From assembly GCA_945875915.1 (NCBI GenBank), contig CAMCMT010000022.1, positions 1 through 42,037 on the forward strand: a stretch of 42,037 bases of DNA. Direction: 5' to 3'. The notes beneath the pieces were generated by a model. The model saw only the letters and a list, made by a program, of their open reading frames with translations, had not been told where the DNA came from and ran no database searches. This DNA comes from Synechococcus sp. UW140 (GTDB lineage: Bacteria > Cyanobacteriota > Cyanobacteriia > PCC-6307 > Cyanobiaceae). This document shows, in pieces, positions 15,233-22,908 of this stretch; the stretch's first letter is position 1, and each line of letters opens with the position of its first letter. The translations under genes were made by a program, and so were the position numbers.

Positions 15233-15772
15233 TCACACTTTAAGAATGTCTGCCTCTTTGTCTGCGAGATGCTTTTCGACCTCGGTGATGTAGCGATCGG
15301 TGAGTTTTTGAATCTTGTCCTGTTCGTCGCGGCTCTGGTCTTCCGAGAATTCACCATCCTTCTCAAGTTTTTTCACCTTGTCGATGGCATCGCGCCGCAA
15401 ATTGCGCAGGCCAACTTTGCCTTCTTCAGCATATTTGGAGGCCAGTTTAACAAAATCTTTGCGACGATCGGCCGTCAGTGGCGGGATATTGATGCGAATC
15501 ACCTTGCCATCGTTGTTGGGGGTTAGGCCCAGGTCACTCATGGCGATCGCCTTTTCAATTAGGGCCATCGAACCCCGGTCGAAGGGCTGGATCTGGATCG
15601 TCTGGGAATCGGGGGTGGAAAGGGTTGCGAGTGCTTTGAGGGGAGTGTCGGCTCCGTAATAATCAATGCTCAGTTTGTCGAGCAGGGACGGGTTGGCCCT
15701 GCCGGTGCGAATCGTGTTGAAGGTGCGCTGGGTGGCTTCCACCGATTTGCGCATGCTTGCTTCGAGGTCCAT
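15233..15772 (-). CDS. frr: Ribosome-recycling factor
   Basis: 179 residues from the ATG at 15772. With EF-G it splits post-termination ribosomes. Recognisable segments are [66 protein letters not shown] and the C-terminal helix [21 protein letters not shown]. The frame is open further upstream to 15934, but that extension overlaps pyrH and has no family similarity, so the shorter start is chosen; it gives the normal length. pyrH lies 82 bp upstream in the same orientation, the widespread bacterial pyrH-frr pair. Confidence 0.97.
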
Positions 15773-15854
15773 GGCGAAAAAGTCAGGCAGGGGAAGGGGG
15801 TCGCTAATCAGGTCGCTCGACAGTTGCAAGCTCTGGCGAGGCAGCCAAAGGGGC

Positions 15855-16568
15855 TCAGATCGAGGGGGTGATGCGGGTGCCGATCGCCTCGCCAGCAACG
15901 GCCCGGCCGATATTGCCCGCTCCGAAGAGATCAAACACCACGATCGGAATGGCGTTGTCCTTACAGAGGGCGATGGCGGTGCTGTCCATCACGCCCAGTT
16001 CACCGCTAAGCACGTCCTGAAAGGTCAGGGTCTCGTAGCGGCGGGCATCGCTATGCAGGGTGGGGTCCTTGTCGTAGACGCCATCCACCTTGGTGGCCTT
16101 CATCACCACATCGGCGCCGATCTCGGCGGCCCGCAGGGCGGCGGTGGTGTCGGTGGTGAAGAAGGGGTTGCCGCAGCCGGCACCAAAGATCACCACCCGC
16201 CCTTTCTCCAGGTGGCGGATCGCCTTGCGGCGGATGTAGGGCTCGGCCACCTCCTGCATGCTGATGGCGCTTTGGACTCGGGTGGGTACCCCGGCCCGCT
16301 CCAGGCCGTCCTGGAGGGTGATCGCATTCATCACCGTGGCGAGCATGCCGACGTAGTCGGCCGTGGCCCGGTCCATGCCGGCGGCCGAGCCCTTGAGACC
16401 GCGAAAGATGTTGCCGCCGCCGACCACAATTGCTAGCTCGGTGCCAGTGGCCACCACGGCTGCCACATCGGTGGCGATCGATTGCACGATCGCCGGATCA
16501 ATGCCATACCCCTGATTTCCCATCAGCGCTTCGCCGCTAAGTTTGAGCAGGACACGCCGGTAGCCCAT
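15855..16568 (-). CDS. pyrH: UMP kinase
   Basis: Bacterial UMP kinase of the amino-acid-kinase fold (237 residues) that makes UDP from UMP and ATP. Motifs are LLKLSGEAL near residues 7-15, [10 protein letters not shown] (48-57), the regulatory/UMP region [19 protein letters not shown], and [12 protein letters not shown], which is strongly diagnostic. Length is normal. It sits upstream of frr and downstream of cobO on the minus strand, with a 134-bp gap to cobO that could hold its own promoter. ATG start [12 protein letters not shown]. Confidence 0.97.
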
Positions 16569-16702
16569 CGGGTTCCTGGGGAAACAGTCGGCCGAACAGT
16601 AGCAAGCGTGCGGGGAGTTGGCCGATCTGGACTGGGGCGGGTTGGGTTTGGTGCGAGCGCATGCCTGGGCCAGTTCAGGGGCAACCTCGGTACGCCAGCC
16701 AA

Positions 16703-17422
16703 TCAGTACTCGATCCCGGCCTGGGCCTTGACCCCCTGTTCGCGGAACGGGTGCCGCACCATTTTCATCTCCGTGACCAGGTCGGCCCGCTCGATCAGGC
16801 CTGGGGGCGCACCGCGGCCGGTGAGGGCCACATGGGTGAGTGGTGGCCGCAGGGCCAGGCCCTCCAGCACCTGATCGAGGCCCAGGTAGCCCAGTTTGAG
16901 GGCCACATTCACCTCGTCGAGCACCACCAATTTGCGGCTGCCATCGGCCAGGTACTCGCAGGACCGTTGCCAGGCCTGCTGCACCAGCTGCCGGTCCCGC
17001 TCCCGGTCCTGGGTCTCCCAGGTGAAGCCCTCCCCGAGGGCATGCCAGGCCAGGGCCTCGCCGAACAGCTGCAGGGCCCGGGCTTCGCCCGGTTGCCAGC
17101 CCCCCTTGATGAATTGCACAACCGCCACGTGGTCGCCATGGCCCAGGCTGCGCAGCACCAGGCCCAGGGCAGCGGTGGTTTTGCCCTTGCCATCACCGGT
17201 GAACACCAACACCAATCCCTTTTCCAGGTTGCGCTCACCCACCCGTTGTTGCTGGACCTCCCGGCGCCGGGCCATGCGCCGGCGGTAGCCCTCGGCATCG
17301 GCCTCCGGGGCTAGGTCGCCACCGGGACCGAGCTCGGCGGCAGCCTGGTCCAGGCTTTGCCCGCTGGATGGCTGCTCGGGGCCGGGCTGGCCCGTTAGAT
17401 CGGCGCTAGGGCTCTGGCTCAA
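16703..17422 (-). CDS. cobO: Cob(I)alamin adenosyltransferase, CobO/BtuR type
   Basis: Transfers the adenosyl group of ATP to reduced corrinoids, in cobalamin synthesis and salvage. The P-loop is GDGKGKTT at 77-84 within [20 protein letters not shown], followed by [11 protein letters not shown], the Walker-B-like [14 protein letters not shown], and [22 protein letters not shown] near the C-terminus. Core length fits the family. The first 65 residues are an extra disordered and basic extension (239 residues in total), and the true start could be internal. TTG is the start used. Co-oriented downstream of the integrase with a 97-bp gap that holds a 21-bp tandem duplication. Confidence 0.93.
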
Positions 17423-17453
17423 GGGGGCTCCGCATCAGGCCCGGCACTCTGGC

Positions 17454-17495
17454 GCCCCCGGGCCTACGGCTGTTGCCCCCGGGCCTACGGCTGTT
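17454..17495. repeat. 21-bp direct tandem duplication, intergenic
   Basis: Two perfect adjacent copies of a 21-bp unit starting GCCCCCGGGCCTACGGCTGT, in the 97-bp gap between the integrase stop and the cobO start. Each unit contains the CCCGGG palindrome. It may be simple slippage or a duplicated binding site. Confidence 0.85.
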
Positions 17496-17519
17496 GCCTT
17501 CCATAGGGGGCTGTCGCCT

Positions 17520-19022
17520 TCAGGCGGGCATTTGTCGCCGAGCCAGGGCCGCATCGACGGCCTGTTGTTGGTCCCGGCGGGTGATCCAGTGGTGGTAAGT
17601 GCGGGTGTGGATCGCCACCGAGTGGCCCATCATCCGGGCCGCCACGGTGTCGGGTAGGCCCAAGTGGATCGTGCGCACGGCCCAGGCGTGGCGCAGGTCG
17701 TAGGGGGTCAGGGAGAGGCCATAGCGGCGGAATTGCTCGGCCACCCGCCGGCCCACCTGCTGCAGGGTGGTTTGGCGCAGGTCCGTGCTCACCGGCGGCA
17801 GCTGGCCCTTGAGCTCGGCAAGCCGCGGCAGCTCGAAGGCCTCCACCCACTCCGGCTGGAAGGGCCAGATCTGGTGTTCGCCGGTCTTGCTGGTGGGCAG
17901 CACCCGGATCACCCGATCACCGCGACTGGCCAGGGCCGAGAGATCACTGAAAAAGATCTCGTGGTTGCGCAAGCCGTAGGTGGCCATCAGCCCATAGGCC
18001 AGACGCCAGCCAGGGTTGGGGATGCGCTCGCTCCAACTCAGAATTTCCTGGTCGTTAGGTAATTGGCGGAATTGGGCCACATGCAGGCCATAGCCACCGG
18101 CCCGCTCGCTCCAGTCCCCAGGCAGGGTGATTCCCTGCTGGCCGGCTAGGGCCGCCAGGGTGGTGCCGCATTGTTGGCGGCCGCGGCTGGCGCTGGGATA
18201 GCTCTCCAGCACCTGCTCCAGCAGCCAAAGCGGCGGCGCATGGGTCAGTGGCAGACCCAGCTCGCCGGCGGCTTGCTGCAGCCGGCGTAGGTAGGGCAGG
18301 TAGGCGCTGGTCCAGGTGGTGCGGCTGCCGGCCGGCGTGCGGCGGCGGCGAGGGTCGGCAAAAAACTGGTGCTTAAACGTTGCCAGGATCGGAGCGAACT
18401 CACCATGGGCCCAAGGGAAACGGCCCGGGGGCCCGGATTGGGGACCAGGGGGCCCGGCTGGCTGGGCCGGCCGCTGTTGGCCTGGGCGCCGGGCCTGGCT
18501 TGGAACGCTGGGACGGCGCTGCCGGGGCGTGGCTCTGGGATCACCAAGGTTTTGGCGATGGGGGGCGGGGCTGGTTGGCGGCTGCGCCGAAATCGGGACC
18601 AAGCCCGCTGGCTTGGCTTGAATCTGGCTCCAGTCCTCCCAATGGAAGCGCTGCAGTTGCAGCTGTTGCAGCAGCCGGCGCAGCTGCAGCCGCGCCTGCT
18701 CCAGGCCATCGGCGTCGGCTCTTAGCCCCAGGCTGAGGCGTTGCACTGGATGGGCGCCGGAACCGCGGCGACAGGGCAAGGGCCCCCGGAGGCCCAGGCG
18801 GTTGCCGCGCCGCTCCAAACGCAGGGCAACGCCAGTAGCGGCCAGTAGAGCGTTCTGGCGCTGGATCTCGGCATCTAAGGCAGAGTCCGGGGTGGCCTCC
18901 GGGGGAATGGGTGCTTCGCGATCGTTGGCAGAATTGCTTGGAGGTAGCGGATTGGCCGCCACGGGGGGCTGGGGATCGGTCGCCTGCGGTTGGGGCATCG
19001 GCACGTCTGCTTTTTGTCCCAA
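17520..19022 (-). CDS. Tyrosine recombinase/integrase-family protein, chromosomal orphan
   Basis: 500-residue phage-integrase-superfamily protein. The catalytic domain has Arg352 (YGLRNHEI), Lys379 (PTSKTGEHQIWPF), Arg444 in YDLRHAWAVR, His467 (MMGHSV) and the nucleophile Tyr476 (HTRTYHHWI). The first His of the usual HxxR box is Tyr441. An arm-like N-terminal domain (about 50-135) and a core-binding domain (about 205-320) are separated by a Pro/Arg/Gln-rich linker of about 65 residues. No phage genes, tRNA or obvious att repeats are next to it. It lies between cobO and hemH among core genes, so it looks like a resident protein, not part of a recent element. TTG start; an ATG eight codons in (18998) is an alternative. 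The protein is near-complete in motifs and probably active. Confidence 0.85.
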   Translation of the reverse strand: MGQKADVPMPQPQATDPQPPVAANPLPPSNSANDREAPIPPEATPDSALDAEIQRQNALLAATGVALRLERRGNRLGLRGPLPCRRGSGAHPVQRLSLGLRADADGLEQARLQLRRLLQQLQLQRFHWEDWSQIQAKPAGLVPISAQPPTSPAPHRQNLGDPRATPRQRRPSVPSQARRPGQQRPAQPAGPPGPQSGPPGRFPWAHGEFAPILATFKHQFFADPRRRRTPAGSRTTWTSAYLPYLRRLQQAAGELGLPLTHAPPLWLLEQVLESYPSASRGRQQCGTTLAALAGQQGITLPGDWSERAGGYGLHVAQFRQLPNDQEILSWSERIPNPGWRLAYGLMATYGLRNHEIFFSDLSALASRGDRVIRVLPTSKTGEHQIWPFQPEWVEAFELPRLAELKGQLPPVSTDLRQTTLQQVGRRVAEQFRRYGLSLTPYDLRHAWAVRTIHLGLPDTVAARMMGHSVAIHTRTYHHWITRRDQQQAVDAALARRQMPA

Positions 19023-19120
19023 CGGAGGGCTGACCCTATCGATGGCATGGCGGTCGCGCCAGGCCCAGCTCCGGCGCTGCAGCGTTACGCTCAGGGAATT
19101 CCCGTCGACAAACCTGGGGC

Positions 19121-20296
19121 ATGACCAAGGTCGGCGTACTTTTGCTGAACCTCGGTGGCCCAGAGCGCATCGAGGATGTGGGGCCTTTTCTCTACAACCT
19201 TTTTGCGGACCCGGAAATTATCCGGCTGCCGACCCCGGCTCTTCAAAAGCCCCTGGCCTGGTTGATCAGCACCCTGCGCAGCGGTAAGTCGAAGGCGGCC
19301 TACCGCTCGATCGGGGGGGGCTCACCTCTGCGCCGTATCACCGAGCACCAGGCGCGCGAGCTCCAGAGCGAGCTACGCCATCGCCAGATTGAAGCCACCA
19401 CCTATGTGGCGATGCGCTACTGGCATCCCTTTACCGAATCGGCGGTGGCCGATATCAAGGCCGATGGCATTGAGGAAGTGGTGGTGCTGCCCCTCTATCC
19501 CCATTTCTCGATCAGCACTAGCGGTTCCAGCTTCCGGGAACTGCAGCGCTTGCGCCAGCGGGATCCAGCCTTTGAGCGCCTGCCGATCCGCTGCATTCGC
19601 AGCTACTACGACGATCCGGGCTATATCGGGGCCATGGCCGAGTTGATCGCCAAGGAAATCCAGAGCTGCGGGGTGCCGAGCACGGCCCATATTTTTTTCA
19701 GCGCCCATGGGGTGCCGAAGAGCTACGTGGAGGAGGCGGGCGATCCCTACCAAGCTGAGATTGAGGCCTGCGCTGACTTAATCATCGAGCGCCTCCAGGC
19801 CCAGCTGGGCCACTCCAACCCCTTCACCCTGGCCTACCAAAGCCGGGTCGGTCCGGTCGAATGGCTGCGGCCCTACACCGACGATGCCCTGCACCAGCTG
19901 GGCGCCGATGGGGTCAAGGATTTGGTGGTGGTGCCGATCAGTTTCGTGAGCGAGCACATCGAAACTCTCGAAGAAATCGACATCGAGTACCGGGAAATTG
20001 CCACCGAGGCTGGGGTGACCAACTTCCGTCGGGTGCCCGCCCTCGATATCACACCCAGCTTCATCATGGGGCTCGCCGACCTAGTGCAGCGCGCCCTGGC
20101 GGGCCCGGAGGTGAACCTGGATCAGGCTGCGGAACTATCCCGCACGGTCAAGCTCTACCCCCAGGACAAGTGGGCCTGGGGCTGGAACAACAGTTCCGAA
20201 GTTTGGAATGGGCGCCTGGCCATGCTGGGCTTTTCGGCTTTCCTGTTGGAGTTGATTAGTGGCCAGGGGCCCTTGCATGCCTTGGGGTTGCTTTAG
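19121..20296 (+). CDS. hemH: Ferrochelatase with C-terminal chlorophyll-binding-like helix
   Basis: Inserts iron into protoporphyrin IX, the last step of heme synthesis and the branch point with chlorophyll. Motifs are LLLNLGGPE at the N-terminus, YWHPFTES near 100-107, [15 protein letters not shown], and the catalytic His196 in [19 protein letters not shown]. The last 40 residues (about 351-391) form the CAB-like extension known from cyanobacterial and plastid ferrochelatases: a tryptophan-rich linker (WAWGWNN) then [20 protein letters not shown], with the ExxNGRxAM chlorophyll-binding signature. The extension is thylakoid-associated and thought to tune tetrapyrrole flow. ATG start [10 protein letters not shown]. 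Divergent from the integrase gene with 98 bp between starts. Confidence 0.97.
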
Positions 20297-20342
20297 GGCC
20301 GCCGGCCCTGGGGCCAGTTCGCCTCCGGCGTCCATCCCAGGG

Positions 20343-20903
20343 TTGCAGTCCAACTGGTCTGGCCGACTAGGCGCCTGGAATCGCTTGCTTCCCTGGGACT
20401 TGCTACTGGCCGGGGCCCTGCTTTCAGCGATGGCGGCGCCAGCCCAGGCCGAACCCCGCTGGCGCCGGGGTGTCTTCCCGGTGGTGAGCTTTTTTGGGTA
20501 CACCAGCCATTTCGGGCTGCGGGCCGGCCCCGGCGGCACGGAGCCCCATTACGGCCTCGATATTGCCGCCCCGCTTGGCTCTCCGATTCGCAACTGGTGG
20601 GGGGGCTTTGTCAGCGATGTGCTGGCCGGGGGGGCCTGTGGCAATGGCCTGGTGATCAGCTCCGGACCCTATGAGCACCTCTATTGCCACCTGGCTGGCG
20701 AGGTCACTGGTGGCGTTTACCGCAGTGGCGAGGTCCTGGTGGCCAGCGGCCAACGGCTCCAGGCCGGCGAACTGATCGGCCATGTCGGCATCACCGGCCG
20801 CACCACCGGCCCCCACCTGCACTGGGGCATCCGTTATCGGGGCCAGTGGCTAGATCCGGCCGTGATCCTGCGGGCCATGGCGATGGCCCGCAGGGGGGGC
20901 TAA
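20343..20903 (+). CDS. Secreted M23-family peptidase (LytM-like)
   Basis: 186 residues from a TTG at 20343. A signal peptide with hydrophobic core LLLAGALLSAMAAPAQA ends at a likely AQA-EP cleavage site. The metallopeptidase domain has zinc ligands H69 and D73 in HYGLDIAAP and the H158-x-H160 pair in GPHLHWGIRYRG. The GxG-type loops around LVISSGPYEHLYCHL and VGITGRTTG fit the lysostaphin/LytM fold. All ligands are present, so it could cut peptidoglycan peptide bridges in the periplasm. An open frame runs upstream into hemH from 20259 but reads poorly. It follows hemH in the same direction after 46 bp. Confidence 0.87.
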   Translation: MQSNWSGRLGAWNRLLPWDLLLAGALLSAMAAPAQAEPRWRRGVFPVVSFFGYTSHFGLRAGPGGTEPHYGLDIAAPLGSPIRNWWGGFVSDVLAGGACGNGLVISSGPYEHLYCHLAGEVTGGVYRSGEVLVASGQRLQAGELIGHVGITGRTTGPHLHWGIRYRGQWLDPAVILRAMAMARRGG

Positions 20904-21054
20904 GCCAGGGCCGCAATAGCGATCGGCCGCGGTGCCCGGCCCCCTGGATGGGTTGCCGCGTTTGGGCGCCATACAACAGCTGGTCGCTCCAGCCCCCATC
21001 GCGGAGGCAAGCCCTTAGGGTTGGTTATCGCTGTTGTCGGTGCTGGCTGTCGTC

Positions 21055-22908
21055 GTGACCCTGACCTCCGTATCTGCCGCGGCTGAGACCGCCATCGCTT
21101 CCTACCCGGTTCGGGTGAACGGCGGCTATGCCCTGATGGATGCCTTGCATCGCCATGGTGTTGACCATATTTTCGGCTACCCAGGCGGGGCCATCCTGCC
21201 GATCTACGACGAATTGCACAAGGCCGAGTCCCGGGGCTGGCTAAAGCACATTCTGGTGCGCCATGAGCAGGGCGGTAGCCATGCGGCCGATGCCTATGCC
21301 CGCGCCTCCGGAAAGGTGGGAGTTTGTTTCGGCACTTCCGGCCCGGGTGCCACCAACCTGGTTACCGGCATCGCTACGGCCCAGATGGATTCGGTGCCGA
21401 TGGTGGTGATCACCGGTCAGGTGCCGCGGGCCTCGATCGGCACTGATGCCTTTCAAGAAACCGACATCTTCGGCATCACCCTGCCGATCGTGAAGCATTC
21501 CTGGGTGGTGCGTGATCCCGCCGACATCGGCCGGATCGTGGCGGAAGCTTTCCTGATCGCCTCCACGGGTCGGCCTGGTCCGGTGCTGATCGATGTGCCC
21601 AAGGATGTGGGCCTCGAAGAGTTTGAGTACTCGCCGGTGGAGCCCGGTTCGGCCATGCCCGCCGGCTACCGCCTGCCGGCGCCAGCCCATCCCGAATCGA
21701 TCACCCAGGCCCTAGAGCTGATTCGCCAGGCCCATCGCCCCCTTCTATACGTGGGCGGCGGTGCGATCAGTTCCGGCGCCCATGGGGTGATCCACCAGCT
21801 GGCCGAACGGTTCCGGCTGCCTGTCACCACCACGCTGATGGGCAAGGGAGCCTTCGATGAAACCCATCCCCTGGCTGTGGGCATGCTCGGCATGCATGGC
21901 ACCGCCTACGCCAATTTTGCGGTTACCGAGTGTGATCTGTTGATTGCAGCTGGGGCCCGTTTCGATGATCGGGTTACGGGCCGGCTCGACAGTTTTGCCC
22001 CCCGGGCCCGGGTGATCCACATCGATATCGATGCGGCCGAAGTGGGCAAGAACCGGGTGCCTGAGGTGCCGATCGTGGCCGATGTGCACCAGGCGATCGC
22101 GGCCATGCTTGCCGCCTCCACGGGTGAGGCCCCTTCGGGTCGCACCGAGGTCTGGCTTGAGCGCATCGCCCGTTGGAAACATCATTACCCCCTGGTAGTT
22201 CCGATCCCGGAAGGGGAAATCGCCCCCCAGGAGGTGGTGATCGCCCTGCAGGAACTGGCACCCAAGGCCTATATCACCACTGACGTGGGCCAGCACCAGA
22301 TGTGGGCCGCTCAATTTCTTCATACCGGCCCGCGTCGTTGGATCAGCAGCGCCGGCCTGGGCACCATGGGCTTTGGCATGCCCGCCGCCCTGGGCGTGCA
22401 GACCGCTTTCCCCGAGGAGCAGGTGATTTGTGTGGCTGGCGATGCCAGCATTTTGATGAACATTCAGGAATTGGGCACCCTGTCCCAGTACCAGCTGCCC
22501 GTGAAGGTGGTGATCATCAACAACGGTTGGCAGGGCATGGTGCGCCAATGGCAGGAAAGTTTCTATGGAGAGCGCTATTCCGCCTCGGAAATGACCGGCG
22601 GGATGCCCAATTTCGAGGCCCTGGCCGAGGCCTTTGGGGTTAAGGGGATCACTATCACCAAGCGAGAGGACCTGCACCCTGGCCTGCGCCAAGCCCTGGA
22701 CCATCCAGGTCCGGCTTTCGTCAATGTGGTGGTGCGGCGGGGTGAGAACTGTTATCCGATGGTCCCCCCCGGCGCTAGCAATGCTCAGATGGTGGGCTTG
22801 CCTAGCCATCCGGAATTGGCCATCGACACGAGTCGCCAGTGCAACGCCTGTGGCAGTACCACCGAGAGCGCCCACCACTTCTGCCCCAGCTGTGGGGCAA
22901 AGCTCTGA
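21055..22908 (+). CDS. ilvB: Acetolactate synthase large subunit with C-terminal zinc ribbon
   Basis: Thiamine-diphosphate and FAD enzyme that makes acetolactate for Val, Leu and Ile. Landmarks are [15 protein letters not shown] (about 40-54), catalytic Glu71 in [19 protein letters not shown], the FAD domain with [12 protein letters not shown], and the TPP/Mg motif [15 protein letters not shown], with [16 protein letters not shown] after it. The last 22 residues add a zinc-ribbon-like knuckle with Cys 596, 599, 610 and 613 (CNAC... CPSC), which is not part of the standard enzyme. The GTG at 21055 gives [11 protein letters not shown]; a TTG at 21034 would add seven hydrophobic residues. The regulatory subunit gene is not in the window. 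Confidence 0.96.

Follow-up and report, generated by a model that had tools for sequence, protein, structure and literature searches.

A tyrosine recombinase gene beside hemH is an ancient cellular gene, inherited vertically in many Xer-less cyanobacteria, and may do the job of XerC/XerD

The window, the whole 42,037-nt stretch of DNA analyzed here, carries on its minus strand (17520..19022) a tyrosine recombinase gene of a type usually labelled phage integrase. Comparison with relatives identifies it as an ancient cellular gene, passed on vertically in many cyanobacteria without Xer, where it may do the job of XerC/XerD. As best explanation we propose, tentatively and at somewhat less than an even chance, a domesticated arm-type tyrosine recombinase resolving multimers in place of the lost XerC/XerD. 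Conservation, fixed synteny, vertical descent, an intact R-K-Y-R-H-Y site, the predicted domain order and the absence, in the window's genome, of canonical Xer and of FtsK above cut-off jointly point in this direction.

The gene comprises 500 codons with a TTG start and is delimited by its open reading frame, the PF00589 match and its orthologues. As the first ~45 residues are unconserved, the start codon is uncertain and the true start may lie downstream. PF00589 is the sole Pfam match of the 500-aa product (32.3 bits, cut-off 27.1) and the frame is open throughout, in agreement with the integrase-family protein that the first-pass annotation had called at this place. Catalytic residues are R352, K379, Y441, which occupies the His position of the HxxR motif, R444, H467, and Y476. 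None of the six (R, K, the Tyr of YxLR, R, H, and Tyr) varies across an alignment of 50 orthologues (50/50). In a second sequence set, Tyr was found at the first HxxR position in 27/27 orthologues and 22/22 distant paralogues, compared with His in all 13 comparison sequences, a set made up of 12 Xer proteins from sister classes plus a Xer-like integrase encoded in the own genome. Because Tyr441 is found without exception throughout the family, and likewise in active XisA-type enzymes, it gives no sign of lost activity, and by its residues the recombinase is probably catalytically competent. The same two points make the earlier description of a nearly intact catalytic set, which had named Tyr441 correctly, an understatement.

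The accessible text of PMC3610870 reports the His-to-Tyr change in XisA, XisC, and XisG, and that of PMC4874684 describes XisA-type enzymes as excising their elements. These cyanobacterial proteins share with the window recombinase the R-Y-R-Y site and, by profile comparison, homology over the full length. Relatives with the same Tyr-for-His site include nif-element recombinases; three of them occupy an 11.4-kb section of one nif cluster (L276:1336-12692), apparently in neighboring nif elements, and their position beside nitrogenase gene pieces, NifU and a NifS-type aminotransferase therefore marks them as XisA-type element recombinases. This kinship raises the idea of a programmed rearrangement, in which the enzyme would excise or invert one specific locus like XisA, XisC, or XisG, unrelated to chromosome multimers. 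We regard this as unlikely. The XisA-type enzymes read here from nif clusters measure about 430–475 aa, occur several per genome and reside inside elements that interrupt nif genes, whereas the hemH-linked recombinase is a single gene with a smaller product in most species and no flanking repeats; in the loci read it lies within no element and beside no interrupted gene. Moreover, the gene is kept by picocyanobacteria, which are not known to differentiate cells.

The recombinase gene is flanked downstream by cobO (16703..17422, minus strand) and pyrH, and upstream by the divergent hemH for ferrochelatase (19121..20296, plus strand); these are the names we assume for the neighbors, based on their protein sequences and adopted from the first-pass annotation. 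By open reading frame and synteny, hemH is a conserved neighbor, and cobO is one within the same cyanobacterial family. The recombinase and hemH share a divergent intergenic region (19023..19120) that holds GTTACGCTCA, is conserved in relatives and is most simply read as promoter sequence. A tRNA scan detected neither tRNA nor tmRNA within the window, and a repeat search of 15500-21500 yielded no att-like repeats, its hits being limited to GC-rich matches of low strength and a single 21-nt tandem repeat. The setting first described, between cobO and hemH with neither tRNA nor att repeats, was thus confirmed. The tandem repeat comprises two 21-nt copies at 17449-17490, between recombinase and cobO; the locus of a congener (L007) seemingly holds further copies, so that it appears to be a small expanding repeat.

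To determine how widely the gene occurs, its catalytic and core part was used as query against 149 relatives, 124 of which gave a match at E<=1e-3. By our reading of individual match rows, the recombinase is found at E<1e-100 in 78/91 genomes of the same family (Cyanobiaceae), in 54/57 of those at least 90% complete, and in 31/58 genomes of other families at 51–67% identity, two of these as pieces. Further genomes of other families lack it (26/58), and one, G118, retains a degraded copy near hemH (L280:3948-4839), in pieces about 2 kb from hemH, the copies in G131 and G144 of the same family being intact. Among the three same-family exceptions, G029 (L281) and G053 (L282) have an intact hemH and a clean absence of the recombinase, with an ORF in its place that we take, from its motif, to be methyltransferase-like; in the third, G090, the contig begins inside hemH. 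The two clean absences imply that the recombinase was lost at least twice within the family. A gene universal in cyanobacteria was considered and rejected: family f32, Nostoc-like to judge from the nif elements it carries, is represented among the matches listed by nothing better than relatives of at most 350 bits.

Gene order around the recombinase is remarkably constant. Both hemH and cobO flank it in 30/30 same-family loci, and a scan of named genomes recovered at least 80 loci, Synechococcus WH7803 included, where among those listed hemH is present in 79/80 and cobO in 78/80 in one gene order. By title all of these are picocyanobacterial except L126, a record titled Bifidobacterium breve (MAG) that carries the picocyanobacterial hemH-recombinase locus in the same order; this record probably bears a wrong name or includes contamination. 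Beyond the family, the fetched locus includes hemH in 11/18 cases, and in L053 hemH is not divergent. Relatives scoring 180–380 bits do not lie at hemH: among 20 loci fetched, hemH is present only in L280, which carries the degraded copy. Hence, the term orphan in the first-pass annotation is wrong, as the recombinase is a conserved neighbor of hemH; the synteny check in picocyanobacteria that it proposed returned a fixed hemH-cobO order.

In the 67 of the 80 listed loci yielding all six genes, protein distances of the recombinase track those of hemH (Mantel r=0.918) and cobO (0.919) as closely as hemH and cobO track each other (0.906), and 0/2000 shuffles reached the observed r. In a tree of 62 sequences, 27 orthologues form a group of their own, set apart by a branch of 0.58 with 99% bootstrap support. 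Within the genus, dN/dS amounts to 0.11–0.15 in the core (four comparisons), 0.25–0.36 in the N-terminal part and 0.34–0.86 in the linker; by this measure the core is under purifying selection. As judged from these sequence comparisons, the recombinase is a vertically inherited core gene in fixed synteny, and this inheritance predates the divergence of many cyanobacterial families.

A recent phage or island integrase, or the remnant of one, is therefore highly improbable given fixed synteny, vertical descent, purifying selection, and the lack of tRNA and att repeats; a collection of 50,697 phage records likewise held no match to the recombinase. What speaks for it is a published listing. The accessible part of PMC10382063 gives hemH of PCC 7942 as Synpcc7942_0137, and that of PMC3025956 lists a phage integrase, Synpcc7942_0136, as a xenolog drawn from an island database and proposes dropping integrases from the minimal genome. 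Since its tag adjoins the hemH tag, Synpcc7942_0136 is very probably the orthologue, a conclusion drawn from tags and not from sequence. A caution follows for such lists, in which the likely S. elongatus orthologue figures among alien genes as a phage integrase. That the gene is domesticated and has a housekeeping role, as first suggested, is well supported by presence in nearly all complete same-family genomes, synteny, descent, constraint, and the absence of a mobile context, and neither of the patterns named as refuting this, flanking att sites or canonical XerC/D, was encountered.

Matches beyond chromosomes are distant. Plasmid matches were confined to three records, all below 40% identity, and viral-contig matches to eight loci with at most 31% identity. 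Two small circular plasmids, from Microcystis (33% identity) and Picosynechococcus (39%), carry distant relatives, a finding that would fit a host recombinase serving islands or plasmids that lack an integrase and retained because it would also reduce the burden they impose, by resolving or excising them. This is quite unlikely in our view: core-gene constraint and synteny across families demand a benefit to the host, and no island adjoins the gene.

The domain layout of the product was derived from alignment and prediction, with approximate boundaries. On the minus strand, an N-terminal arm-binding domain (18555..18900) is followed by a Pro/Arg-rich linker (18405..18560) between arm and core-binding parts and by the core-binding and catalytic domains (17523..18405), which are placed by PF00589 and alignment and hold R352, K379, Y441, R444, H467, and Y476. 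The arm domain was assigned by alignment with the beta-beta-beta-alpha domain of an orthologue model and by weak PF12167 matches. These matches occur in 9/20 orthologues (E<=0.1, best E 0.0012) and stay below the cut-off where seen; L038, for example, scores 14.4 bits against a cut-off of 22 for this arm domain of the IntBPP-1 subgroup. Most orthologues comprise 383–450 aa and lack the Pro/Arg-rich linker; this absence and its dN/dS values therefore characterize the linker as a loosely constrained, genus-level expansion. The long linker noted earlier is thus real, yet a trait of the window's genus.

Structural comparison was based on an AlphaFold prediction for orthologue L108 (384 aa; mean pLDDT 79, pTM 0.46), in which the relative placement of domains is uncertain and the last helices reach a pLDDT of about 50. 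The model displays an N-terminal beta-beta-beta-alpha domain (residues 1-76, pLDDT roughly 90 or higher), followed by a helical core-binding part and the catalytic domain. Fold searches (Foldseek, VIA-align) returned XerA (5hxy) as best match, with Z 10.6, rmsd 11.5, and 245 aligned residues, and full-length lambda integrase (1z1g) aligned over model residues 1-381 with Z 9.3, rmsd 12.3, and 300 aligned residues; most rows of the VIA-align list span residues 99-384 only, and the absence of other families from it carries no meaning. On the strength of this predicted model, the architecture is arm-type and lambda-integrase-like (arm, core-binding, catalytic). Arm-type integrases are tied to mobile elements according to the accessible text of PMC8138268; unlike them, the window recombinase lies in no mobile element, has no att sites and matched no phage record. 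The same text describes a weaker conservation of the HxxR His in IntBPP-1, where the window family has an invariant Tyr instead.

The structures of SroF and MrpR, from SPbeta-like phages, also appear among the fold matches. Together with the divergent orientation toward hemH and a short intergenic region that many families retain, they could suggest a DNA-binding regulator derived from a recombinase and acting, e.g., on the shared hemH promoter region. Such a role is distinctly unlikely, as a pure regulator would have no need of six catalytic residues, nucleophile included, that are invariant in all 50 orthologues, and hemH is absent from the fetched locus in 7/20 loci.

The proposal of multimer resolution draws on the distribution of Xer and FtsK. 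The window recombinase scores 13–18 bits against NCBIfam Xer models with cut-offs of 220–330. A search of its own genome for XerC/XerD, as the first-pass annotation had advised, revealed four PF00589 places, none above the Xer cut-off (best 133 versus 279 bits), and hence no canonical XerC/D; nor does this genome contain an FtsK domain above cut-off. Neither the Xer nor the FtsK search gave a signal in the control genome, Synechococcus elongatus. Across the 149 relatives, one (G147) passes the Xer cut-off and 18 the FtsK cut-off, none of the latter of the same family. Among 291 genomes of the phylum, an XerC/D model scores above cut-off in 141, none of which belongs to the window's class, and two copies are usual; among the matches listed, five genomes from that class attain E 1e-48 without passing the Xer cut-off. 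XerC/XerD are therefore a regular feature of the sister classes and have all but disappeared from the photosynthetic class, and the accessible part of a comparative study (PMC5101192) calls xerC rare in cyanobacteria.

Xer scores above 165 bits, a line drawn after the scores were seen and among relatives that are not independent, occur in 8/149 relatives (G147, G143, G102, G121, G134, G108, G124, and G137, from four families), and all eight lack the hemH-linked gene. Many families lack both Xer and the recombinase, and most of the 26 recombinase-less genomes are without a strong Xer. Two individual loci deserve mention. G147:C275:3209-4084 (327 bits) is the sole canonical Xer of the same class among the 149 relatives; as G147, alone among 23 genomes, gave no hemH match, its class assignment is doubtful and it may be misplaced or mixed. 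In the own genome, G000:C59:535-1437 (L035) encodes the Xer-like integrase of 133 bits; this type is found in several relatives of the family, in some as multiple copies, and is probably mobile.

With Xer proteins (XerC/D, XerH, XerS, and XerA) the recombinase shares the tyrosine recombinase fold and the status of a vertically inherited core gene, though it is absent from whole families. It differs in scoring far below the cut-offs, in Tyr for His, in the lack of FtsK and of a detected dif site, and in an extra arm domain: Xer proteins have core-binding and catalytic domains only, whereas an arm is predicted here by the L108 model and the weak PF12167 matches. By score, HxxR residue, and domain order it is not a Xer, but it may work in a Xer-like manner. 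In PMC8138268, as far as its text was accessible, Oscillatoriophycideae are described as Xer-less but equipped with a 'Cyan' subgroup of simple recombinases, a class that usually has no arm domain; the subgroup is proposed there as a Xer substitute in cyanobacteria without Xer. This description does not fit the window protein, because the latter bears an arm.

In the favored scheme of multimer resolution, a single recombinase would act alone, without FtsK, at one or few chromosomal sites and convert multimers of the chromosome, perhaps also of plasmids, into monomers, replacing the XerC/XerD pair lost by the photosynthetic class. Strands would be cut and exchanged through Tyr476, and the arm and core domains would bind two classes of site. 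It is further conceivable, albeit rather doubtful, that it represents a third multimer-resolution machinery, in which a single, FtsK-independent, arm-bearing R-Y-R-Y integrase replaced XerC/XerD after the split from the sister classes and acts at a composite core and arm site unlike dif. Such a site would account for the failure of dif prediction in cyanobacteria, where the accessible text of PMC3025954 gives a success in 0/5. Against multimer resolution in general stand the failure to detect a dif-like site, the two clean losses within the family, the 26/58 genomes of other families without the gene, and the arm domain, a feature of integrases from mobile elements and not of the dimer resolvases known so far.

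A literature search, with most subscription journals outside its coverage, retrieved no paper that treats the gene as core or tests its function. For multimer separation in cyanobacteria, many of which are polyploid, a single core gene is now named as candidate. If the proposal holds true, an arm-bearing integrase related to the XisA-type excision enzymes has been recruited for chromosome maintenance.

We searched for a DNA site in terminus stretches of eight picocyanobacterial genomes (1.22 Mb in total), located by GC/AT skew; six of the eight were anchored on an ftsH homologue, and several have no clear skew flip within the stretch read. Neither this sequence nor the surroundings of the gene yielded a dif-like site, although a diverged, differently built or outside site would escape such a search. 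The role in chromosome dimer resolution envisaged at first is thus favored by a distribution complementary to Xer, but its expected site did not come to light. In XerS, the recombination site adjoins the gene; the corresponding candidate here, the intergenic region between hemH and recombinase, was discarded, its conserved words being promoter-like. Conserved intergenic palindromes in the eight termini showed no excess over a reversed-sequence control, apart from one tRNA. Pairwise and eight-way searches for conserved intergenic sequence recovered tRNAs, one RNA-like stretch, and one element present in 6/8 genomes. The latter, composed of TTGACG, a G-run, and TTTAAA (L168:1338-1620), was rejected as candidate site because it resembles -35/-10 sequences ahead of a conserved 76-aa ORF. 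Rfam at gathering score gave no match in the G062 stretches (L163/L164) that hold the RNA-like sequence (G062:C1:219904-220761). It spans ~180 nt, is intergenic and recurs at G038:C1:1138665-1138843 (L174), with 76% identity between these distant picocyanobacteria.
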